Shown: piece after piece, positions 5,104-17,384 of the stretch
Layout of the letters: each line of letters begins with the position of its first letter
Numbering within the stretch: the stretch's first letter is position 1
IMG/VR virus record: IMGVR_UViG_3300010354_000892
Coordinates: 1 to 20,241 of that record
DNA length: 20,241 nucleotides
Origin: a virus
Strand: one strand, 5' to 3'
Made by a program: the position numbers and the translations under genes
Notes under the pieces: model-generated
What the model saw: the letters and a program-made list of their open reading frames with translations, nothing else
Database searches by the model: none
Told to the model about the DNA's origin: nothing

Positions 5104-5235
5104 CTAGTTGCCGGTGATCCATTGGAAGACGCGAACGGCGATGCCGAGGGTGGCGGCTGTTCCGATGATGAGGAGGGCGAGGAGGATGAAGGCGGCGCAC
5201 CCGTTCATGGAGCGGGGCGGCTTGTTTACTCCCAT
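5104..5235 (-). CDS. Small single-pass membrane protein, 43 aa
   Basis: ATG at 5235 lies inside the end of the upstream ParB-like gene (10-nt overlap) with GAAGAAGG as ribosome binding site. A short basic N-terminus (MGVNKPPRSMN) precedes one long hydrophobic segment (CAAFILLALLIIGTAATLGI), then VRVFQWITGN. The positive residues before the helix favour an N-in orientation. It could be a membrane-acting early protein, for example in exclusion or host control, or a small holin-like peptide far from the lysis genes. Function unknown. Confidence 0.6.
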   Translation of the reverse strand: MGVNKPPRSMNGCAAFILLALLIIGTAATLGIAVRVFQWITGN

Positions 5236-5789
5236 GATGCCTTCTTCATAACGTCGCTCCTGAGGAGTGTAATGGTTTCGTTGCAGTAGGGGCAAGGTAT
5301 GTTAAGGCGGGGTTCGGCGTCGCGCTTGTCTGAGGCGGCAGTGAAGTCGTCTTGGATGCGGGCCTCGATCGCGTCCACCTTGTCTTGGGTTACCTCGTGA
5401 CTGGACTGCTTAAAGGTGGGGTCGAGTTCGATGTCGGGGAAGAATAGGTCCCTGAACTCTAGGTTCGTGAACTCTTTCAGTTCGAGGGAGAGGTCATCGG
5501 TCCACTCCGCGTATTCGGAGGTCCGGTTGTCAATGATCCGGTATTCCTTAGCCTTCTTTGCGGGCATGTCGGAGATGACGACGGGGGCTTCTGTCCAGCC
5601 GAGTTCCCTGAGGGCCCGGTAGCGGGTGTGCCCGACAATGATGGTCAGTTTGGAGTCCACGATGATTGGGGCTTGGTAGCCGTATTCCTGAATCGACGCT
5701 TTGACCTTCTCTACGGCGAGGTCGTTCTTGCGGGGGTTCCGCCAGTACGGGACGAGGGTGTCCAGTTTCACGGTTTCGATCCGGTTCAT
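5226..5789 (-). CDS. ParB/sulfiredoxin-fold protein 3 with C-terminal CPxC
   Basis: The 187-residue product begins with a ParB N-terminal-type domain: LDTLVPYWRNPRKND (9-23), GYQAPIIVDSKLTIIVGHTRYRAL (37-60) and IIDNRTSEYAEW. GHTRYRAL occupies the position of the ParB GERRxRA motif but diverges from the CTPase consensus. No ParB-type HTH follows. The C-terminus carries IPCPYCNETI, a CxxC knuckle. ATG at 5789 follows GGAGG by 8 nt and overlaps the upstream stop as ATGA. Phage proteins of this type are variously annotated as ParB-like nucleases, adapters of methyltransferases or transcription regulators. Which applies cannot be read from sequence. Confidence 0.85.
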   Translation of the reverse strand: MNRIETVKLDTLVPYWRNPRKNDLAVEKVKASIQEYGYQAPIIVDSKLTIIVGHTRYRALRELGWTEAPVVISDMPAKKAKEYRIIDNRTSEYAEWTDDLSLELKEFTNLEFRDLFFPDIELDPTFKQSSHEVTQDKVDAIEARIQDDFTAASDKRDAEPRLNIPCPYCNETITLLRSDVMKKASWE

Positions 5790-6478
5790 GCGTTTGCCTC
5801 CATGTCGGGACGTTCTGCGGATTCTGATAGGTACTCTTTGCGGATCTTGATCTGCTTATCCGTTTCCCACGCCTGCCCGTAAGACGCGTTCTCGAACAGT
5901 TTCGCGAACCCGGTGACGTACTTCAGTCGGGCGAGTTCCTCAGCCTCCAGCCCCACCTCGTTGCAGATCTCCTCATCTGAGGCCCCGTTGCGGAGCATGT
6001 TAAACACGATCTGGCCCATGCCTGCCACGGAGTGCTTACCCCGTGCGCGGTTGTGGCGGACGGTCGAGGCCATACGGTCGTTGATGTCCTTGTCGATCAC
6101 GACGATGGGAAGCAGACCCCCGTTCAGGTCATAAATGTCCTTATTTGTCCGCATAATCGTGTAGCGGTGGAAGCCGTCCACAATCACGTACTTGCCGAGT
6201 TCCTCATCCCAATACGTGACCACGGGTTGCGTGTACCCGTCGTGGCTAATCGAGACATACAGGAGCCGCATCTCATTCTTCGCAACCGAGTTCGGGTTGT
6301 AGTCGTTCGCCTGCACCATCTCCACCGGGACCCAACGCACATGGTCAATGGGCTGTGTCGAGCGGGGCGATAGGGCAGCGAGGCGCTCCCGAACCGTGGC
6401 GATCGCTTCCTGCCGGTCAGGGGCCTTCTCAATCATGACCGTCAGCGTGTTCAGCATCTCGTCAAGCGATGGTTCCAC
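5786..6478 (-). CDS. IbrB-like ParB-fold protein, partner of PP-loop protein
   Basis: The GTG start at 6478 has an ideal ribosome binding site (AGGAGG, 7 nt) and overlaps the PP-loop gene by 17 nt. The 230-residue protein has a helical N-terminus, then a ParB/Srx-like core: VPVEMVQANDYNPNSV (50-65), SISHDGYTQPVV (76-87) and YVIVDGFHRYTIM (97-109). A helical part with RHNRARGKHS (141-150) and a helix-turn-helix-like ASDEEICNEVGLEAEELARL (166-185) follow. This arrangement, directly after a PAPS-reductase-like gene, matches the IbrA/IbrB pair described in E. coli, where the two act as regulators. DGFHR resembles the DGQHR motif of DndB, a parallel only. Confidence 0.87.
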   Translation of the reverse strand: MEPSLDEMLNTLTVMIEKAPDRQEAIATVRERLAALSPRSTQPIDHVRWVPVEMVQANDYNPNSVAKNEMRLLYVSISHDGYTQPVVTYWDEELGKYVIVDGFHRYTIMRTNKDIYDLNGGLLPIVVIDKDINDRMASTVRHNRARGKHSVAGMGQIVFNMLRNGASDEEICNEVGLEAEELARLKYVTGFAKLFENASYGQAWETDKQIKIRKEYLSESAERPDMEANA

Positions 6479-7577
6479 GGTAATCCTCCTGCTCTGCTAG
6501 TCGAGCCGTGGTGAAGTTATGGGATTCCCAGTTCGACAGTTTCGTCATCTCCACGTCGTTCGTGAGGATGCTGTTAATCTGGACCTTGTAGAGGGCGGGG
6601 CCCACGGCGTGCGGGTAGCGGCGCTCCATGCTCGCGAACCTCTTAGCGAACCGGGTCCGGTACTTCTCCTCTGTGATGAGGTGCTCCAGAAGGTAGTCCC
6701 GGTATTCCAGCCATGAGGTGAACATGAATGGGAGGTCATACACGAAGTAGTCGTCCTTGCCGAGTTTCGCCGCCGTGTCCAGCCCGGAGATCCGGCGGGT
6801 TGCCGCCTCATACGTGGCGGGCTCGATTTCCTGCAGCATGAACAGGGCATGGACGGCGGTCTCATGATGGTAGTTCGAGACCCGCATCTTCCTGACGGGC
6901 ACCCCGTAGCGGTGCATCGCGTCATAATGCGTGTTATAGGTCCAGCCGTGGTCGTGGATCGCCTTCCACACGTCAATGTAAGACCAGTCATAGATTGGGT
7001 GGAAGTTGTAGTGGTCGAGGGGTTTCGAGATCACGTTGCCCCATGTCGCCCACTTATAGGTTGCGCTCCCCGTGGTGGACATGAACCGGACGGGTGACTC
7101 TTCAGCGCGAACCCCGGTGAGGACGGCTGTCGGCGTGTCGGCGAACTCGTGGGCCACGATCGCTTCCATGAGTTTCACGAATCTGTCCACGCCGTAGATG
7201 TTCTCGTGGCGGGCGATCGGGTCCTTCTCCCTAACCCATTCTGCGCCCTCTCCCCAAGCGTCGAGCCATAGGGAATCGGAGGATGTCGCATTCTGCAGCC
7301 GGAACGGGATCTGATACCACCACGGTTCCACGTCCGGTTGGTACATGATGTGCTTCTGGTAGGTGGCGGTTGCCTCGAACTCGCACTCTTGGTCAAGCCA
7401 GAATACGCGCAGGGGGAGGCGACCTTTCTCGCGGGCGACCATCCGGGTCAGTTCGAACACGACAGTGGAGTCCTTGCCGCCCGAGGTCGAGACGATCACG
7501 TTCGGGAACTCATCGAAGATCCATCGGATGCGGTCGAGCGCGGCCTCCAGAACGGTCTCTTTCCTGTAGACCTTCAT
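6462..7577 (-). CDS. IbrA-like PAPS-reductase-family PP-loop protein
   Basis: ATG at 7577 has GAGGGG upstream and overlaps the acetyltransferase stop as ATGA, giving 371 residues; a longer in-frame extension is rejected. The adenylation PP-loop SGGKDS is at 32-37, VFWLDQECEFEAT at 58-70, TGVRAEES at 154-161 and HPIYDWSYIDVWKAI at 193-207, the last typical of the family. The C-terminal third has IbrA-like features (YDAMHRYGVPVRKMRVS). The ECGxH cysteine motif of true assimilatory PAPS reductases is absent, so sulfate assimilation is unlikely. It probably adenylates or thiolates a target, or acts as a regulator with the IbrB-like protein downstream. Confidence 0.88.
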   Translation of the reverse strand: MKVYRKETVLEAALDRIRWIFDEFPNVIVSTSGGKDSTVVFELTRMVAREKGRLPLRVFWLDQECEFEATATYQKHIMYQPDVEPWWYQIPFRLQNATSSDSLWLDAWGEGAEWVREKDPIARHENIYGVDRFVKLMEAIVAHEFADTPTAVLTGVRAEESPVRFMSTTGSATYKWATWGNVISKPLDHYNFHPIYDWSYIDVWKAIHDHGWTYNTHYDAMHRYGVPVRKMRVSNYHHETAVHALFMLQEIEPATYEAATRRISGLDTAAKLGKDDYFVYDLPFMFTSWLEYRDYLLEHLITEEKYRTRFAKRFASMERRYPHAVGPALYKVQINSILTNDVEMTKLSNWESHNFTTARLAEQEDYRGTIA

Positions 7578-7975
7578 AGTCCCCTCACCCGGTAATGGTC
7601 CTTCAGGTCGAAGTGGACAAGCCCGTAGAACCTGTCGCTGTCCATGAGGACGCCTCCGCATCCGAGGTACAGGCGCAGGCTGTTTGGGTTTGTGTAGGCG
7701 ATAGCGAACTGCATTGACATCTCGCGGGAACGGCTTATCTGGTAGCGGATCAGTGTGGCCCCTAGCCCTTGACCCCGGAACAGTGGGCGCACGTACAGGT
7801 TCCTGTACGTTGCCCTGTTGCCGAGATATCGAAGGCCACAGAAGCCTGCGGGCTCGTCGTCCACGTACAGCATGGCGTATTCCGTCTTAGGGACGAACGA
7901 GAGTCCTTCTTTCTTGCCTGCCCCCATGTAGGGCCGGATAACCGCTTCCTCGACTCTTCGAATGTCATGTTTCAC
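7574..7975 (-). CDS. GNAT-family N-acetyltransferase
   Basis: The best start is GTG at 7975, which overlaps the upstream stop as GTGA and gives 133 residues. A TTG at 7999 would add eight. The acetyl-CoA binding motif appears as RNLYVRPLFRGQGLGATLI, where RGQGLG is the Q/RxxGxG/A loop. It is preceded by the beta-strand pair EYAMLYVDDEPAGFCGL and followed by AIAYTNPNSLRLYLGCGGV, the conserved C-terminal part of the fold. The acyl acceptor is unknown: host protein, phage protein or a toxin-like target are all possible. It is embedded between a ParB-fold gene and the PP-loop gene, and its start codon lies inside the parS palindrome. Confidence 0.85.
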   Translation of the reverse strand: MKHDIRRVEEAVIRPYMGAGKKEGLSFVPKTEYAMLYVDDEPAGFCGLRYLGNRATYRNLYVRPLFRGQGLGATLIRYQISRSREMSMQFAIAYTNPNSLRLYLGCGGVLMDSDRFYGLVHFDLKDHYRVRGL

Positions 7976-7983
7976 GTGAAACG
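7968..7983. promoter_or_regulatory. Near-perfect bacterial parS site
   Basis: TGTTTCACGTGAAACG differs from the B. subtilis-type parS consensus (TGTTTCACGTGAAACA) only at the last base. Its inner 14 bp, GTTTCACGTGAAAC (7969-7982), are a perfect palindrome identical to the parS sequence known from Streptomyces and mycobacteria. It straddles the end of ParB-fold gene 1 and the start of the acetyltransferase. Chance of a 16-mer within one mismatch in 20 kb is about 2 in 10,000. Whether host or phage ParB binds it is unknown. Confidence 0.75.
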
Positions 7984-8421
7984 TCCGCACGTCGGGCAAG
8001 GGGCCCCGAATGGGATCTCTGGCAGCGGTTCAGGGTCGGTCGGTGGCTGGAGTGCAGCGAATCCAAAATCGGAGACATCCCATCCCACCGCGTCGAGTTC
8101 GAGTAACTGGTCGGCGAGTACCTGAGGGTCCCAATGGGAGAGTTCGCTCGTCCTGTTGTCTGTGAGGGCGTAGGCGCGGGCCATGTCGTAATCCCAGTCG
8201 GGCGGGACGCGGGTGATCTCGATTTCGCTCCAGCCGAGGGCTCGTGCTGCTTCGAGGGTGCCGTTGCCAGCGATGACGACGTTCTGCCATACCACGAGGG
8301 GGCGCTGTTGCCCGAACATGCTGAGGCTTCCCATGAGTGTTTCGATGTTCCGTTGCGGGTGTCGTCTCGCGTTCTCCGGGTCGGGGATGATCGACCCTAT
8401 TGGCACCTTATGAATCTGCAC
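7972..8421 (-). CDS. ParB/sulfiredoxin-fold protein 1 with C-terminal CPxC
   Basis: The GTG start at 8421 (MQIHKVPIGSIIPDPENARR) has GGAGG 6 nt upstream and lies within the end of the upstream HTH gene, giving 149 residues. It shows the ParB N-terminal-type core: IPDPENARRHP, SLSMFGQQRPLVVWQNVVIAGNGTLEAARALGW, and then AYALTDNRTSELSHWD. GNGTLEAA stands where ParB has GERRxRA. There is no HTH or dimerisation domain. The C-terminus FGAPCPTCGRFT carries a CxxC, like the other short ParB-fold protein at 5226. Such phage proteins are often called ParB-like nucleases. Its stop codon lies inside the parS palindrome. Confidence 0.85.
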   Translation of the reverse strand: MQIHKVPIGSIIPDPENARRHPQRNIETLMGSLSMFGQQRPLVVWQNVVIAGNGTLEAARALGWSEIEITRVPPDWDYDMARAYALTDNRTSELSHWDPQVLADQLLELDAVGWDVSDFGFAALQPPTDPEPLPEIPFGAPCPTCGRFT

Positions 8422-8662
8422 TTGCGGCCTCCGAGCCGCGTGACTCCACAATCCGTTTCACCGTGTTCGGGGTGATCCCGGTTTCCAGAGCGATGCCGTA
8501 CATGCTCCAGCCCCGTTCCATCATGGACGTTACCCGTTCCCGGCGGTCTCGGGAGAGGGCCTTATTCCGTTCGATGTTCCGGGTGATCGTCTCGTTAATG
8601 TCCTTGATAATGTCGAGTTCGGCTCGCTCGTGATCGTTCGGCTTCCTCAGTGGTCTTGGCAT
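8408..8662 (-). CDS. Helix-turn-helix DNA-binding protein, 84 aa
   Basis: ATG at 8662 follows an AGGAG-AGAGGGA purine tract and lies 16 nt inside the end of the RusA-like gene. The product starts MPRPLRKPNDHERAELDII, has a charged helix (NIERNKALSRDRRERV), and then a clear helix-turn-helix, MERGWSMYGIALETGITPNTVKRIVESR, like those of resolvase or sigma-like regulators. A 17-residue N-terminal extension is possible but has a weaker start. It may regulate the operon or help replication or packaging. The sequence supports DNA binding only. Confidence 0.78.
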   Translation of the reverse strand: MPRPLRKPNDHERAELDIIKDINETITRNIERNKALSRDRRERVTSMMERGWSMYGIALETGITPNTVKRIVESRGSEAASADS

Positions 8663-9375: not shown

Positions 9376-9476
9376 GCGGGGTCTCCTTCGCAGCATGAGT
9401 GCTTCAGCCCGCAATGGGGGCATCTCCAGCGGCAGCCGATGTTGTCGAATTGCTCCCCGCAGTTCAAGCATTCCAT
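9372..9476 (-). CDS. 34-residue zinc-ribbon micro-protein
   Basis: This short gene lies between two others with no spare bases. Its ATG at 9476 overlaps the upstream stop as TAATG, and its TGA overlaps the HNH ATG as ATGA. The product starts MECLNCGEQFDNIG and contains CxxC, CRWRCPHCGLKHSCC and a short acidic tail, with eight Cys in 34 residues. Two CxxC pairs define a zinc ribbon, and the extra Cys may bind a second metal. I recall similar tiny proteins in actinophage replication regions with no known role. Confidence 0.75.
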   Translation of the reverse strand: MECLNCGEQFDNIGCRWRCPHCGLKHSCCEGDPA

Positions 9477-9790
9477 TAGCGCCTCAGCCTCCGCATTTCC
9501 TCCTTCACGTAGTCCGGCATTGGTATGCCGCCCCCGGACGGTAATGCCATGCGTTCCATCTCCCGGTGCCGCTCATTCCTCCATGCGGTCACAAGATGGG
9601 CGGGCATGAGCATGTCGGTCGTTCGGGCGTAGTGCCAGTTCACGCGGGCGGAAGCCCATTCGTAGGTCATTCCGGGGGCCTCCTGCGAGAACAGGGCGTA
9701 CCACGCTTGAACCTTCACGTCGTCTGTTCCGTGCCGTTGATCGTGCCCGTTCGCGAGGGCGAGGAGGATCGCGGTCTCCGTCTCGTTCAT
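9476..9790 (-). CDS. Replication-associated protein, possible helicase-loader-like
   Basis: ATG at 9790 has AGAGGG 9 nt upstream and overlaps the replication-initiator stop as ATGA. The 104-residue product is helical: MNETETAILLALANGHDQRH, VKVQAWYALFSQEAPGMTY, WASARVNWHYARTTDMLMPA and HLVTAWRNERHREME. This helix pattern, with VQAWY and an HYA...MPAHLV segment, resembles small phage proteins next to replication initiators that are sometimes called helicase loaders. It has no ATPase motif, so the call is by pattern and position. Confidence 0.7.
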   Translation of the reverse strand: MNETETAILLALANGHDQRHGTDDVKVQAWYALFSQEAPGMTYEWASARVNWHYARTTDMLMPAHLVTAWRNERHREMERMALPSGGGIPMPDYVKEEMRRLRR

Positions 9791-10587
9791 GAGATTGCCC
9801 TCTGTTGGCGCTGTGCGTCCCTCTGAGCGGCCCGTTCGATCATGCCCTGTACCTCCGTCACCTTGCGCTCGCTTCGGCCCTCACGGGGCGGCAGAGGGCC
9901 GTCTTGCCACCGCTCACCGTTCAGCCACGTCGCGGGGAGAGCCGTGAATCCTGCCTCCCGGTTCGGATCGTCCCGGTAGCGTGCCGCCCCCGCGATGATA
10001 TCGGAAGCGGGTGCCTTCCGTAGTGCTTTCATCCACGCTCTCCGAGCATGACCCTTGTCGTCTCTTCGGGGATAGGCCTTCCAGAATGAGAGCCATTCGG
10101 GGTCAGAGTCGAGATCGACCGGCTTTTGGACGAGAGAACTGTCTGCTTCAGATATGTCTGTCTTAGGTATGTCTGCTTCCCTATACAACTTTCTTGACGA
10201 CGGTCGTAAAGATTCTTGGGTAGGGGGTGGTAAAGATTCTTGACGACCCCCTGAAGATTCTTGCCACCTGAGGGTGTAGAGATTCGAGGACCGATCGCCC
10301 TTGTCGTCCATGCGGGGCTGTTCTGTCAGCGCCCCTATCCGGGCTAAGACCTCCCTTGCGGCGTCCACCGTCGGGATGCTCACTCCCATTCGATCCGCGA
10401 TTGCCCTCCGCGACGGGAAAGAGGATGCCCGGCCCATTGCGTAGGACTGCAGCACGAGATACAGGCGAACCGCGTTCGCGCTCGCATCCGGGTGGAATAG
10501 AACCCAGTGAGGGATGCGCTCATAGTTAGGCTGTTCGACAGCGAGTTGATGCCCATTCTCGGGCGTGTCGCTGATATTCTCTGTCAT
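9787..10587 (-). CDS. Replication initiator / winged-helix replisome organiser
   Basis: This 266-residue protein starts MTENISDTPENGHQLAVEQP with GGGAG 8 nt before the ATG. Residues 23-90 form a winged helix typical of phage replication proteins (IPHWVLFHPDASANAVRL, then FPSRRAIADRMGVSIPTVDAAREVLARIGAL). A polar linker (109-150) carries three QES repeats. The C-terminal part has FWKAYPRRDDKGHARRAWMKAL and FTALPATWLNGERW, the module shared by phage replication proteins that recruit helicase loaders. The linker is encoded by iteron-like repeats, so the origin may lie inside the gene, as with lambda O. The downstream 104-residue protein is coupled by ATGA. Confidence 0.82.
   Translation of the reverse strand: MTENISDTPENGHQLAVEQPNYERIPHWVLFHPDASANAVRLYLVLQSYAMGRASSFPSRRAIADRMGVSIPTVDAAREVLARIGALTEQPRMDDKGDRSSNLYTLRWQESSGGRQESLPPPTQESLRPSSRKLYREADIPKTDISEADSSLVQKPVDLDSDPEWLSFWKAYPRRDDKGHARRAWMKALRKAPASDIIAGAARYRDDPNREAGFTALPATWLNGERWQDGPLPPREGRSERKVTEVQGMIERAAQRDAQRQQRAIS
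10141..10190. other. AT-richer stretch next to iterons (possible unwinding element)
   Basis: This part of the replication gene is visibly richer in A and T than its flanks and carries its own short repeats: GTCTGCTTC at 10141-10149 and 10171-10179, and ATGTCTG at 10154-10160 and 10169-10175. It lies right beside the iteron-like array. In lambda and similar origins, an AT-rich melting region borders the iterons inside the initiator gene. Confidence 0.4.
10188..10288. repeat. Iteron-like array, putative replication origin
   Basis: The 9-mer AGATTCTTG occurs exactly at 10210-10218, 10234-10242 and 10255-10263. Related copies flank it (ACTTTCTTG at 10188, AGATTCGAG at 10280). Start-to-start spacings are 22, 24, 21 and 25 bp, about two helical turns, so the copies face a similar side of the helix. 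The array lies inside the winged-helix replication gene, encoding its polar QES linker. Coding-level repetition could explain part of it. Confidence 0.5.
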
Positions 10588-10644: not shown

Positions 10645-11277
10645 CTATCCGTCTATGCGCTGCTTCGCGGCACCGTAGGCGCGTCGGAGCGTCTCCTTCT
10701 CAGCGTTCGAGATGTCGAGGGCTGGAATCTCCTGCGAAATCGCCGCGAGATCCTCCGCCGATTCGGCGTCAGCGAACCGGGCCACGAGATCAGGCACCTT
10801 CGCGCCGTCGGCAGACGGCTTCGCCGCCTTCTGCTGCTTCGGCTCGCCCCGCTCGTAAGACTCCGAATCGGGGTCCGGCTCATCCGTCGGCAGGGTAAGC
10901 GCCTGCAGGAGCGCGGTACGGAAAGCGACAGACATAGCCTTCGGGGTCGCCTTATCGCCGATATCCATTGCCTCGCCCATGACAGAGCACCGGAGCGAAT
11001 CACCCGTCGGCCCGATGAACGTGTAGGCAACCTTCACGATGACGTGTCCCATCGGTTTGCCGCCGCTAGATGTCGCGACTTCGTAGCGGTGATCGAGCAC
11101 CTCCGGCAGAACCACCACTCCGTGCTTGCGGAGGGCAGGCCCGACAGCGTTCACTACAGCGTCGATTCCCCGGAAGTTGAACCGCTGAGACTCGTTGCGA
11201 TCTTTCTTTGCGACTGATTTAACTTCCTCCATGACGTTCGAAAGCGCCTCGTGGATTGCAGGCTTCTGGTCACTCAT
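10645..11277 (-). CDS. erf: ERF-family single-strand annealing protein
   Basis: The 210-residue product starts MSDQKPAIHEALSNVMEEVK. It shows the ERF pattern: VAKKDRNESQRFNFRGIDAVVNAVGPALRKHGVVVLPEV, VIVKVAYTFIGPTGDSLRC, and GEAMDIGDKATPKAMSVAFRTALLQALTLPTDEPDPD. It is a phage annealase that pairs single strands in recombination and concatemer formation. After the ERF domain comes a charged linker and a C-terminal helical segment (DLVARFADAESAEDLAAI). ATG at 11277 overlaps the Gam end by 8 nt, next to a purine-rich ribosome binding site. Gam just upstream and RusA downstream complete a recombination set. No exonuclease is seen in the window. Confidence 0.92.
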   Translation of the reverse strand: MSDQKPAIHEALSNVMEEVKSVAKKDRNESQRFNFRGIDAVVNAVGPALRKHGVVVLPEVLDHRYEVATSSGGKPMGHVIVKVAYTFIGPTGDSLRCSVMGEAMDIGDKATPKAMSVAFRTALLQALTLPTDEPDPDSESYERGEPKQQKAAKPSADGAKVPDLVARFADAESAEDLAAISQEIPALDISNAEKETLRRAYGAAKQRIDG

Positions 11278-11800
11278 CTTCTTCCTCGATTCCCTCTAGG
11301 TCGATAGCGTTCATGTCCGGGTCGATCTTGACTGTTACTCGTTCGGGTACTGGCATAAGGCCGGGGATGACTTCCCCTGTCGTGGGGTCGAGCACGTCCG
11401 CTCCATTCACGACGACGGACTCCTTAATGCGGGCCATGTCAGGGGCATAGGTGACACGAAGAAGATCCTCCCGGTTAGCCCCCTGAGCCCATTCAGTGAA
11501 TGCGCTCTTATCGACTTCTAGCGTCGGAGTCGATTGCCGGGTCGAGACCTTCCCGTCAGGAAGATCCGTAGACTTCCGGCCTCGCGCCCGCTCCTGCATA
11601 GCCCACGCCTGCAGATGCCCGCCATAGAACTCCATTTGACCCTCTAGCGGCTCTGTTACGCGGTCGAGCCATTCCTGTATGCGGCGACCTTCCGCCTCTG
11701 CTAGGGCCTCGTATTGGCTCCTGCGTTGCGCGAGCACGCGGTATTTCCTCATCGCCCACGCCGCCTTCTCCGGCGTGTCGATTCTCAGTTCGTCTGACAT
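11270..11800 (-). CDS. gam: Gam-like host-nuclease inhibitor
   Basis: The preferred start is ATG at 11800 (MSDELRIDTPEKAAWAMRKY), with GGAGG 7 nt upstream, giving 176 residues; a GTG 12 bases earlier is less likely. The protein has a long N-terminal helical region (AAWAMRKYRVLAQRRSQYE, RRIQEWLDRVTEPLEGQMEF), and then GGHLQAWAMQERARGRKST, LPDGKVSTRQSTPTLEVD and an acidic C-terminus. This matches the Mu Gam family, which binds DNA ends and shields them from host exonucleases. It lies directly before Erf with an 8-nt overlap, the usual pairing. Confidence 0.85.
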   Translation of the reverse strand: MSDELRIDTPEKAAWAMRKYRVLAQRRSQYEALAEAEGRRIQEWLDRVTEPLEGQMEFYGGHLQAWAMQERARGRKSTDLPDGKVSTRQSTPTLEVDKSAFTEWAQGANREDLLRVTYAPDMARIKESVVVNGADVLDPTTGEVIPGLMPVPERVTVKIDPDMNAIDLEGIEEEDE

Positions 11801-11952
11801 TCCATCCTCCACTCCAGTTCTCCAGCGGCGACGGCCCGAATAGCCTTATCCATGAAATCTCCCTCATGGGCCCGTTCCGCGAGGATTGAGAGGACCAGCG
11901 GGTCCATTCCCTTCACGATACGGAGCAGGGCTGACAGTTGCCGCGCCGTCAC
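11785..11952 (-). CDS. Small helical hypothetical protein, 55 aa
   Basis: The GTG at 11952 overlaps the upstream stop as GTGA and gives MTARQLSALLRIVKGMDPLV, then LSILAERAHEGDFMDKAIRA and WRMECQTN. The end overlaps the Gam start by 16 nt. It is mostly helical with no motif. The longer open frame upstream is out of register with any start signal and has shadow composition. Function unknown; second gene of the 12275 operon. Confidence 0.65.
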   Translation of the reverse strand: MTARQLSALLRIVKGMDPLVLSILAERAHEGDFMDKAIRAVAAGELEWRMECQTN

Positions 11953-14026: not shown

Positions 14027-14658
14027 CGATAGGGGTTGTCACCGTCGCCTATGGGCCCACCTATCGGGCGTTCCTGCCTGAATGGGCTGAGGCGGTCGGA
14101 GCACTCCAGACAGTTCCTCAGCAGGTAACGATTGTTACCGATGAGGTGAATCCGGTAATCGCAGACCACGTTTCTGAATACGTCCCCGGCGCGGTATGGG
14201 TGATCTCCCCCCGTGTCCCCATCCATCACCCCCAAGTCCTCGTGAATGACGCAATCGCGATAACTCACACGGACTGGATTTGCAAGATGGACGCGGACGA
14301 CATCATCTACCCCCACGCCTTTAACGGCATGGATCACTACCCGTCAGACATCTTCATGTTCGGCATCCACCTACAGGGCCGAGACATGCCCCCGAACAAC
14401 GTAACCGGGCAACAGGTCCTGCAGTCCACCGAGAATCTCGTGTTCTCCGGTTCCCCCTTCCGAAGATGGGTTTGGGAGGAGAACCACTACCGGGACATGA
14501 TTTATGAGGATTGGGCGTTCTGGAGGGAAGCGGCCCGAGCGGGAGCCATATTCCGGCCTTCAGGCACCATAGATTACGAATACCGGATTCATGGCGGCAA
14601 CATATCGCTGAGGGCCGACGATCAGTATTGGCGAGAGGCAGTGAGGAGCATTACGTGA
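14023..14658 (+). CDS. GT2-like (GT-A) glycosyltransferase
   Basis: The preferred start is GTG at 14023, overlapping the upstream stop as GTGA (211 residues: MTIGVVTVAYGPTYRAFLPE); a GTG at 14011 is possible. The GT-A fold features are an N-terminal VVTVAYG strand, then a QVTIVTD strand, a DxD motif KMDADD (88-93), and a C-terminal IYEDWAFWREAARAGAIF where ED is the usual acidic base region, then YEYRIHGGNIS. It would transfer a sugar from a nucleotide donor. Stop overlaps the epimerase start as GTGA. Confidence 0.87.
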   Translation: MTIGVVTVAYGPTYRAFLPEWAEAVGALQTVPQQVTIVTDEVNPVIADHVSEYVPGAVWVISPRVPIHHPQVLVNDAIAITHTDWICKMDADDIIYPHAFNGMDHYPSDIFMFGIHLQGRDMPPNNVTGQQVLQSTENLVFSGSPFRRWVWEENHYRDMIYEDWAFWREAARAGAIFRPSGTIDYEYRIHGGNISLRADDQYWREAVRSIT

Positions 14659-15668
14659 AGATCGGTATTACTGGAGGCTACGGCTTCATTGGCGGGTGGG
14701 TCACCGACGCATTGCATGAGCGAGGGCATGAAGCACTTATCCTCGACCATAAGGGGCAGGGCTCGGGGCTTTACGGCGATGTTCGTGATGCCACGATCGT
14801 GCAGGAACTTGCGGCACACGTAGACGGCATCATTCATCTTGCGGCTGTGTTAGGGACTGCGGAGACGATTGACAATCCGGGTCCAGCCGCCGAAACGAAC
14901 ATCATTGGCACCCTGAACGTATTCGAGGCGATCACTCGATATGACATCCCGTGCGTGTTCGCCGCCGTAGGAAACTCTGGTATTGGGCGAGGAACCTACT
15001 GCATTACAAAGACGACGGGCGAGCAATTCGTGTCCATGTATCGAGAGGATCGCGGTAGCAAGATCATCGCGGTTCGCCCCATGAACGCCTATGGGCCGCG
15101 ACAGTCAGCGCCCTCCCCATACGGCTCTTCTAAGGTCCGCAAGATCGTCCCGTCCTTCGTTTGCGCGGCGCTATCCGGCGATCCCATGAGACTGTACGGG
15201 GGAGGGGTCCAATACTCTGATTCGGTCTACGTGAAGGACGTGGCGCACTGCTTCGTGCATGCGCTCGAATCAGCCAAAGACGGACTCATCCCCGACTTCC
15301 CAATCGACGTAGGCAATATCGCCCCTCACACGGTCCTAGACGTAGCGAACGCCGTATCTGACGCCGTAGGAGGGGCGGACATAGTTAGCGTCCCCATGAG
15401 GCCCGGAGAGCCCGAAGGGGGCCCCCTCTCGAACCCTGACGCTGTGCAGCAGATAATCAGCGCGGTTCTATCCACCTGTCCCGACCTTAATCCGATCCAT
15501 GCCCGCCGAATCCTGAAGCAACTCGGCACAGTCGTTTCGGCGGACACGGATACGCTCGCCAGCATCGGAGTGGACCCAACGGGGTTTAAGAGCCTGACGG
15601 AAGGTATCGGGCTCACCGTCGAATGGTTCAGGAAGAACGAGGGAATAACGTGGCGATCCCCAAAGTAA
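14655..15668 (+). CDS. NAD-dependent epimerase/dehydratase (extended SDR)
   Basis: The GTG at 14655 overlaps the upstream stop as GTGA and gives 337 residues. The NAD-binding motif GGYGFIG (residues 7-13) opens the protein, HLAAVLGT follows at 61-68, and Y115-x3-K119 (TYCITKTTGE) is the catalytic pair. PMNAYGPRQSAPSPYGSSKV and a GGGVQYSDSVYVKDVAH segment match sugar-nucleotide epimerases. A C-terminal extension of about 70 residues is unassigned. It would make or modify the nucleotide sugar used by the glycosyltransferases beside it. Confidence 0.9.
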   Translation: MKIGITGGYGFIGGWVTDALHERGHEALILDHKGQGSGLYGDVRDATIVQELAAHVDGIIHLAAVLGTAETIDNPGPAAETNIIGTLNVFEAITRYDIPCVFAAVGNSGIGRGTYCITKTTGEQFVSMYREDRGSKIIAVRPMNAYGPRQSAPSPYGSSKVRKIVPSFVCAALSGDPMRLYGGGVQYSDSVYVKDVAHCFVHALESAKDGLIPDFPIDVGNIAPHTVLDVANAVSDAVGGADIVSVPMRPGEPEGGPLSNPDAVQQIISAVLSTCPDLNPIHARRILKQLGTVVSADTDTLASIGVDPTGFKSLTEGIGLTVEWFRKNEGITWRSPK

Positions 15669-16342
15669 TCCACCGGATATGGTTCGGCCCCCGTGACATG
15701 CCAGCCCGATACGCCGAATACGGGCAGGATTGGCGACGACTAAATCCAGAATGGGACCTAATCGACTGGACATATGAGACCCTCCCCCCGCTACGGAACC
15801 AGACCGAGTTCGACGGGTGCGGCGTGACATGGACTCCCGAGAGGGGCGACGCAAAAGAGGCGACCATGATTCAGGTCACGCAAGCCGACATTGCCGCGTA
15901 TGAGATCCTCTACCAGAATGGCGGGCTTTACGTGAACTGCGACATGAAGCCAATAAAGCCGCTCCCCGGAGACTTCTGCGACCACAAAGCAGTATTCGCA
16001 TACGAGATCGACGGGACGCTCATCTCAAATGCGTTCATGGCAGCAATCCCCCATCATCCGGCCCTGAACGCTGTTATCGAGGCGATTCCGGCCTCCGTGC
16101 AGAACGCCAGCGGGCGAAGCATGGATTACGTCACGGGCCCTAGGCATCTCACGGACATCATCCAACGGCAATACCCAAACATCACTATTTGGCCTGCGAG
16201 GTACTGCAATCCGTATCTTCCTAATAGTCAGCCGACATTCCATGAGGACACCATCGCAATCCACTATTGGGGACACGCGACACAAGACGAATCACTTTGG
16301 CCCGACATGGACCGCCAACCCGGAGCGCAACGCTACTTCTGA
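15650..16342 (+). CDS. GT32-like glycosyltransferase (Gly_transf_sug type)
   Basis: The GTG at 15650 has GAGGG upstream and lies 19 nt inside the epimerase end (230 residues). The start IPKVIHRIWFGPRDMPARYA and ADIAAYEILYQNGGLYVNCDMKPIKPL (79-105) are classic for Gly_transf_sug/OCH1-like enzymes. Here the usual DxD is NCD (96-98), with Asn in the first position. FAYEIDG, FMAAIPHHPAL and a final HYWGHATQDESLW follow the family. The 3' end overlaps the convergent gene by 10 bp. It likely works with the epimerase and GT2-like gene on one glycan. Confidence 0.87.
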   Translation: MAIPKVIHRIWFGPRDMPARYAEYGQDWRRLNPEWDLIDWTYETLPPLRNQTEFDGCGVTWTPERGDAKEATMIQVTQADIAAYEILYQNGGLYVNCDMKPIKPLPGDFCDHKAVFAYEIDGTLISNAFMAAIPHHPALNAVIEAIPASVQNASGRSMDYVTGPRHLTDIIQRQYPNITIWPARYCNPYLPNSQPTFHEDTIAIHYWGHATQDESLWPDMDRQPGAQRYF

Positions 16343-16995: not shown

Positions 16996-17384
16996 AAGAC
17001 GATCATAGACGGGGAGAACTCGACTATTGGCTCATCTGGCCCCTGCGGATAGGGAATCTGGTTCGCGATCAGGAATGCCTCTAGCCGCTTATTCGCGTTC
17101 CAGCCGGAGAATTCCTCCACGATCCGCCACTTATGTGTGACGACATAGAGTTCCGCGTGCGGTTGCCAAGCCGCATAGACGCCGACAAATCCCGCTCCAT
17201 TAGATACCTCTGAGATAACTTCCCAAACCTCAATTTCGTCTATGCGAGGAGTCCGTTTCTCTATCCACGGAGTTGCCTCTGGCATGTATTCAAAGATGGA
17301 ATCGTAGTTCATCCAGTTTTCGTTAAACAGTTCACCATCTTTAACGGGGTGGAGGAGTTGCTCAGTGGCTTTCCAGCGAGGCAT
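16992..17384 (-). CDS. Hypothetical protein, 130 aa, tail operon
   Basis: ATG at 17384 overlaps the fibre-gene stop as TAATG. The product starts MPRWKATEQLLHPVKDGELF and contains WMNYDSIFEYMPEATPW, EVWEVISEVSNGAGFVGVYAAW and VVTHKWRIVEEFSGWNANKR. It is Trp-rich, with a mixed alpha/beta look and no known motif. It lies between a glycine-rich fibre gene and a glycosyltransferase-like gene, so a fibre-assembly or glycosylation role is possible. That is inference. Confidence 0.72.
   Translation of the reverse strand: MPRWKATEQLLHPVKDGELFNENWMNYDSIFEYMPEATPWIEKRTPRIDEIEVWEVISEVSNGAGFVGVYAAWQPHAELYVVTHKWRIVEEFSGWNANKRLEAFLIANQIPYPQGPDEPIVEFSPSMIVL

Follow-up and report, generated by a model that had tools for sequence, protein, structure and literature searches.

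Replication origins placed inside the gene of their own initiator are a known arrangement. In phage lambda, dimers of the O protein bind the iterons of oriO (PMC7466680), and the annotated genome (NC_001416) has four such iterons inside O, spaced 20, 24, and 23 bp. In SPP1, oriL lies in gene 38 and brings direct repeats and an AT-rich element together inside the gene of the origin-binding protein (PMC6316719). For the plasmid pSK41, the ori-encoded linker of rep was reported to be dispensable for the replication function of the protein, and in pPR9 a PF13730 domain replaces RepA_N along with the origin region (PMC5703833). The DNA-binding domain and the iterons of the PLE satellite RepA covary and swap as a module, and the C-terminal domain is conserved (PMC8263062). 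In the mycobacteriophages Miko, Rachaly, and Jeeves a separate RepA supports replication; the flanking region yielded no repeats there, and a location of the origin in repA or adjacent to it was put forward as no more than a suggestion (PMC7157519).

Here, we analyzed a complete IMG/VR virus record of 20,241 bp, probably a fragment, which is referred to as the window. We consider it very probable that the linker DNA of its initiator gene is a lambda-like in-gene theta origin, made up of iterons and an unwinding element, with predicted binding of the winged helix in cis. A lambda-type origin within the initiator gene had been proposed in an earlier note on this DNA, and this proposal is supported by an iteron geometry like that of lambda oriO and by a comparative test of synonymous codons. 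New in the present work are this member, the evidence for a common in-gene layout across a phage family, and a possible second motif (GAACTA/TAGAAC) shared by 3' arrays of the linkers.

The initiator gene (rep; 9787..10587, minus strand) encodes 266 aa, with an N-terminal winged helix, a linker, and a C-terminal domain. Its assignment is based on phrog_270, on HTH_36/PF13730, and on its homologues, which carry the annotation 'RepA-like replication initiator'. The phrog_270 'replication initiation protein' profile matched most of the protein (aa 19-261, E 2.8e-33), and HTH_36/PF13730 was the best Pfam match (E 2.2e-5), with 24.6 bits just under the cut-off of 25. The winged-helix domain (aa 22-108; 10264..10524, minus strand) was delimited with the HTH_36 match, an AlphaFold model, and fold matches. 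This model has a winged-helix topology with block pLDDT values mostly of 70-90 and one block at 64; the best interpretable fold matches, with weak E-values, were the DnaD N-domain (2v79) and a plasmid Rep-DNA complex (5kbj). Foldseek with the initiator model gave zero matches at E <= 0.001, and a PDB sequence search gave no useful match. The linker (aa 114-156) is predicted to be disordered (pLDDT < 50), and it is followed by a conserved C-terminal domain (aa 162-235; 9883..10104, minus strand) that is common to initiators with unrelated winged helices. RepA_N (PF06970) had no match in the initiator at E values up to 0.1, and the O-like family phrog_391 matched only partially, around the winged helix (aa 45-122, E 4.7e-5). 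Judged by homology, the initiator is thus of the phrog_270 type, and neither a lambda O nor a RepA_N protein.

The linker DNA contains an array of five direct repeats with centers at 10191, 10213, 10237, 10258, and 10283, that is, with spacings of 22, 24, 21, and 25 bp. An exact AGATTCTTG is present at 10210, 10234, and 10255, with no further copy in the window. In the coding direction, and given without strand, the repeats are the degenerate iteron A (10272..10294), iteron B with the exact AGATTCTTG core (10247..10269), iteron C with GGTGGTAAAGATTCTTGACGACC (10226..10248), iteron D, again with the exact core (10202..10224), and iteron E with a TTCTTGACGAC half (10180..10202). The earlier note had described three exact copies and two variants, spaced 21-25 bp, inside the linker of a winged-helix initiator, and all of this was confirmed. 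Iteron C shows the best dyad (9/11 arm pairs); the five-copy consensus reaches 8/11, a value equalled by 30 of 20,000 random sets, and the other copies have 3-5/11, with A and B matching poorly. This partial dyad symmetry suggests, and would fit, binding by a dimer.

Adjoining the array is a candidate AT-rich DNA unwinding element (10135..10214, no strand), which overlaps iterons D and E and has a GC content of 0.41 vs 0.60 for the whole record. No 80-bp stretch of the record has a lower GC than the one starting at 10135 (0.41), a value equalled at 17255. Only 0.025% of 60-mers show a lower stability than that at 10136, which lies in the second-least stable region of the record. Inside the candidate element, three 15-bp repeats (GAAGCAGACATACCT, AAGACAGACATATCT, and GAAGCAGACAGTTCT) follow each other on the coding minus strand (10179-10135); in the close relatives L033/L108 they are partly retained as GAAGCAGAC, which occurs twice, 30 bp apart. 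GC content, stability, and the three 15-bp units thus bear out the AT-richer stretch with repeats of its own that had been noticed next to the array. Of the interval proposed for the origin, 10137-10288, the position held and the extent did not: with the AT-rich part at 10135-10214 and the array at about 10180-10294, the high end had been set slightly short. DnaA boxes (TTATCCACA, TTGTCCACA, or TTATNCACA) were absent from the entire record, and a chromosomal-type oriC was rejected on this ground.

Lambda oriO, whose four iterons are dyads, shares with this locus a position, predicted for the present origin, in the linker of the initiator gene and an AT-rich element 3' in the coding direction, and in both cases the tandem iterons are spaced by about two helical turns. 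Unlike in lambda, the iteron sequence is different, there are five copies rather than four, and the C-terminal domain was unlike O in the family searches that we ran. The plasmids pSK41 (RepA_N) and pPR9 (PF13730 N-domain) likewise combine a winged helix, an origin-bearing linker, and a C-domain, which in the plasmids contacts the host machinery; PF13730 is also the best Pfam match of the present initiator. These are, however, staphylococcal plasmids of Firmicutes, the initiator studied here had no RepA_N match at E up to 0.1, and its C-domain may be unrelated to theirs. SPP1 resembles the locus in having direct repeats and an AT-rich element within the gene of the origin-binding protein; it differs in that it has a further origin, oriR, at a distance of about 13 kb, whereas no second origin was found in our 20-kb fragment.

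To place the locus among its relatives, we used a profile of the C-terminal domain, which gave 513 confirmed relatives in IMG/VR, of which 80 were kept; a second profile, built on the winged helix, gave 17. A search of genome contigs with the winged-helix profile returned a single distant bacterial locus. Further homologues came from 17 public phage records, with lambda as positive control. Repeated 9-mers exceeded the expectation from protein and codon usage in 43 of 62 non-redundant homologue linkers (p<0.01), and 19 missed this threshold; off-frame repeats were significant in 33. An excess was found in only 5 of 243 control segments from other genes of the same loci, and lambda oriO passed the test (13 pairs, 0/2,000 resamplings). 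Repeated 9-mers were absent from the iteron part of the linker in L029/L109 and L033/L108, which are the two closest relatives; L029 failed the repeat test, and the putative iterons of both are placed by homologous position. The repeat sequences themselves diverge widely among lineages, as exemplified by CCGGTTCAAAAATTGAACCGG in L032, GGTAGTCCACAGGTGGAC in L052, and GGGGTGCAC every 22 bp in phage LittleTokyo. Comparison of these loci points to an in-gene layout that is mostly kept while the repeat sequence changes. In Arthrobacter, Gordonia, and Mycobacterium phages, RepA-like initiators combine this C-terminal domain and a linker with repeats, but their winged helices and iterons are different ones. 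In two of the Arthrobacter phages, Altadena and Bumble (L010, L013), the rep-linker iteron CCCCCCCCCTCAAAACCGCG has CCCTCAAAAC in common with the lambda iteron ATCCCTCAAAACGAGGGA, a resemblance that may be due to chance or to convergence.

The earlier note had also suggested that constraints on DNA and protein overlap in the repeats, and it had named synonymous conservation in relatives as a check. When synonymous codons were resampled 20,000 times with the protein and the codon usage of the record fixed, not one trial attained the linker's count of 14 repeated 9-mer pairs, and the same result (0 of 20,000) was obtained when the linker's own synonymous codons were permuted. The centers of iterons E, D, C, B, and A fall in codon phases 0, 2, 2, 2, and 1, so that all three phases are used, and two copies of the 11-mer GTCGTCAAGAA, one in iteron C and one in iteron E, lie 46 bp apart and are read in different frames. 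The QES peptide was not retained in the two closest relatives, which have KDS, QNS, KES, and QDS instead. In the closest pair, L108/L109, conserved degenerate codons were changed in 6/34 cases in the linker vs 74/130 outside (p = 3.9e-5), although amino-acid identity was lower in the linker (0.62 vs 0.75 for the rest). Two further pairs agree, namely L113/L118 (7/33 codons changed in the linker vs 63/120 elsewhere) and MooMoo/Beakin (5/37 vs 62/152). Synonymous conservation of the linker was not universal, as some pairs showed no difference. The pooled figure (25% vs 38%, with the linker lower in 18/24 pairs) includes one duplicate pair and five with unrelated linkers, and individual pairs were therefore used as evidence. 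The linker repeats are thus constrained as DNA and not as a QES peptide. Of the suggested overlap, the QES repeat is indeed present; a separate peptide constraint is not upheld, since the other two iteron copies lie in other frames, and the QES repeat is best seen as a side effect of having three copies in one frame.

If the winged helix recognizes the iterons in cis, the two should be swapped jointly. L047, L052, and L057 share ~93-100% DNA identity over most of the C-domain, yet they have unrelated winged helices and unrelated iterons, and the DNA identity begins near the domain boundary. The same chimera pattern, at lower C-domain DNA identity (80-97%), was seen in L039/L050. In pairs with unrelated winged helices, sharing of linker 8-mers was near zero even where the C-domains were similar. 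These chimeras lend support to the predicted cis binding. They resemble pPR9, where N-domain and origin were exchanged together, and the modular swap of PLE, although the PLE origin is intergenic and outside repA. Within one winged-helix subfamily, the iteron sequences differ between L052/L122 on the one hand and L124 and L118 on the other (GGTAGTCCACAGGTGGAC, GGTGGTACATCAGTGTACCACC, CCGCCTGTGACGACACCTGC), while iteron positions and a spacing of roughly 20-24 bp are kept; this may reflect fast evolution of recognition.

Many linkers contain a second array with a short period (5-17 bp), and the iterons were located 5' of it in 14 of the 18 linkers with both (p = 0.03). In the 3' part of the linkers of L036, L039, L048, and L059, which have different iterons, we observed a common core AACTAGAACCA with a period of 14-15 bp, and the 3' arrays of L047 and L057, whose iterons differ as well, share AGAACAmCATC with a period of 15 bp. 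AACTA was present in 18/62 linkers vs 4.4 expected from synonymous resampling, a comparison in which gene relatedness is not fully controlled. It is conceivable, if rather doubtful, that a GAACTA / TAGAAC core in the 3' half, which recurs with a period of 14-15 bp in several lineages, is a second sequence-specific element that is kept as winged helix and iterons change, and that it is read, perhaps as single-stranded DNA, either by a helicase-loading factor common to these lineages or by the conserved C-terminal domain. If true, the in-gene origin would have two separable specificity codes.

The rep gene sits in a recombination and replication block comprising a Gam-like gene (11270-11812), an ERF-like gene (10645-11277), rep itself, a gene of unknown function, an HNH gene, and a RusA-like gene. 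The gene of unknown function (9476..9790, minus strand; phrog_6055) overlaps the rep stop and occupies the position of a gene annotated 'helicase loader' in some related phages. Its homologues are 58-63% identical, and two are on contigs with the closest initiators, L108/L110. It had no Pfam match and no similarity to Beakin gp72, and a helicase-loader identity was not established. Elsewhere in the window, a PAPS-reductase-like gene (6462-7661) near the terminase gene is flanked by three ParB-N-like genes on the minus strand (5226-5789, 5786-6478, and 7972-8451), of which two gave clear matches (E 1.5e-9 and 9.5e-5) and the third a match at E 0.069. At 14511-16342, on the plus strand and against the prevailing gene direction, genes for an NAD-dependent epimerase (E 1.8e-34) and a DXD glycosyltransferase (E 2.2e-7) suggest sugar decoration of the phage or host surface.

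On the scale of the whole record, no local repeat cluster was stronger than the rep linker, with 14 pairs vs 6 for the runner-up. The rep linker also ranked first in three phage genomes (Abidatro, Bumble, and Gsput1), and it came third in TinaLin. In the latter Gordonia phage (L127) the top cluster, with 83 repeated 9-mer pairs at 35271-35440, is located in the SSB gene and not in rep. A GC-skew switch at the origin, which the earlier note had led us to expect, was not seen at the rep gene in the record or in four related phage genomes, and the skew was almost monotonic along three of these four. GC skew was therefore dropped as origin evidence. A second origin may lie elsewhere, since the record is only a 20-kb fragment.

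With the repeats, the DNA-level constraint, the AT-rich neighbor, the family-wide layout, and the co-inheritance of winged helix and repeats established, we propose that the tandem ~23-bp iterons are binding sites for the winged helix, probably in dimeric form, of the initiator whose gene contains them. The resulting nucleoprotein complex would melt the adjoining AT-rich repeats on the 3' side of the coding strand, and theta replication from this predicted origin would follow once the conserved C-terminal domain has recruited the machinery of the replicative helicase or primase.

Among the other explanations, the one that survives best is that the repeats are operators, through which the winged helix only autoregulates transcription or roadblocks RNA polymerase, with the origin located elsewhere. 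The winged helix is a common repressor fold, several of the weak fold matches were transcription factors, and cis binding of a repressor would produce the same pattern of repeats and swaps. Nevertheless, the sites lie ~300 bp within the coding region, which is no promoter position, and AT-rich repeats adjoin the array. Moreover, the family is annotated as replication initiators, genes for a DnaB-like helicase, a helicase loader, or SSB are found beside many homologues, and lambda O and pSK41 Rep employ such sites as origins, so that we regard the operator explanation as unlikely. Still less probable is that the repeats are neutral products of replication slippage, tolerated by a disordered linker. 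The predicted disorder and the perfect tandem repeats of 5-8 bp in some homologue linkers would fit slippage, but the copies described here are dispersed at 21-25 bp with differing sequence between them, synonymous sites are conserved rather than free, the repeats move with the winged helix, and control ORFs are without them. The least probable explanation, that a selected QES/QESL peptide repeat or a low-complexity linker caused the DNA repeats, can draw on the three exact copies that encode QES in one frame and on the frequent low-complexity linkers of homologues (e.g. DKDKDK, TETETE), but the frame and synonymous tests refute it for the most part, given the copies and the 11-mer in other frames, the off-frame repeats of homologues, the resampling results, and the close relatives that lose QES and keep synonymous codons.

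The in-gene origin reading provides a concrete predicted origin for a large and mostly uncharacterized family of phage initiators, comprising the IMG/VR relatives and many sequenced actinobacteriophages. The combination of frame and synonymous tests offers a general route to origins hidden in genes, and the natural chimeras are ready-made domain-swap tests of the specificity between initiator and origin.
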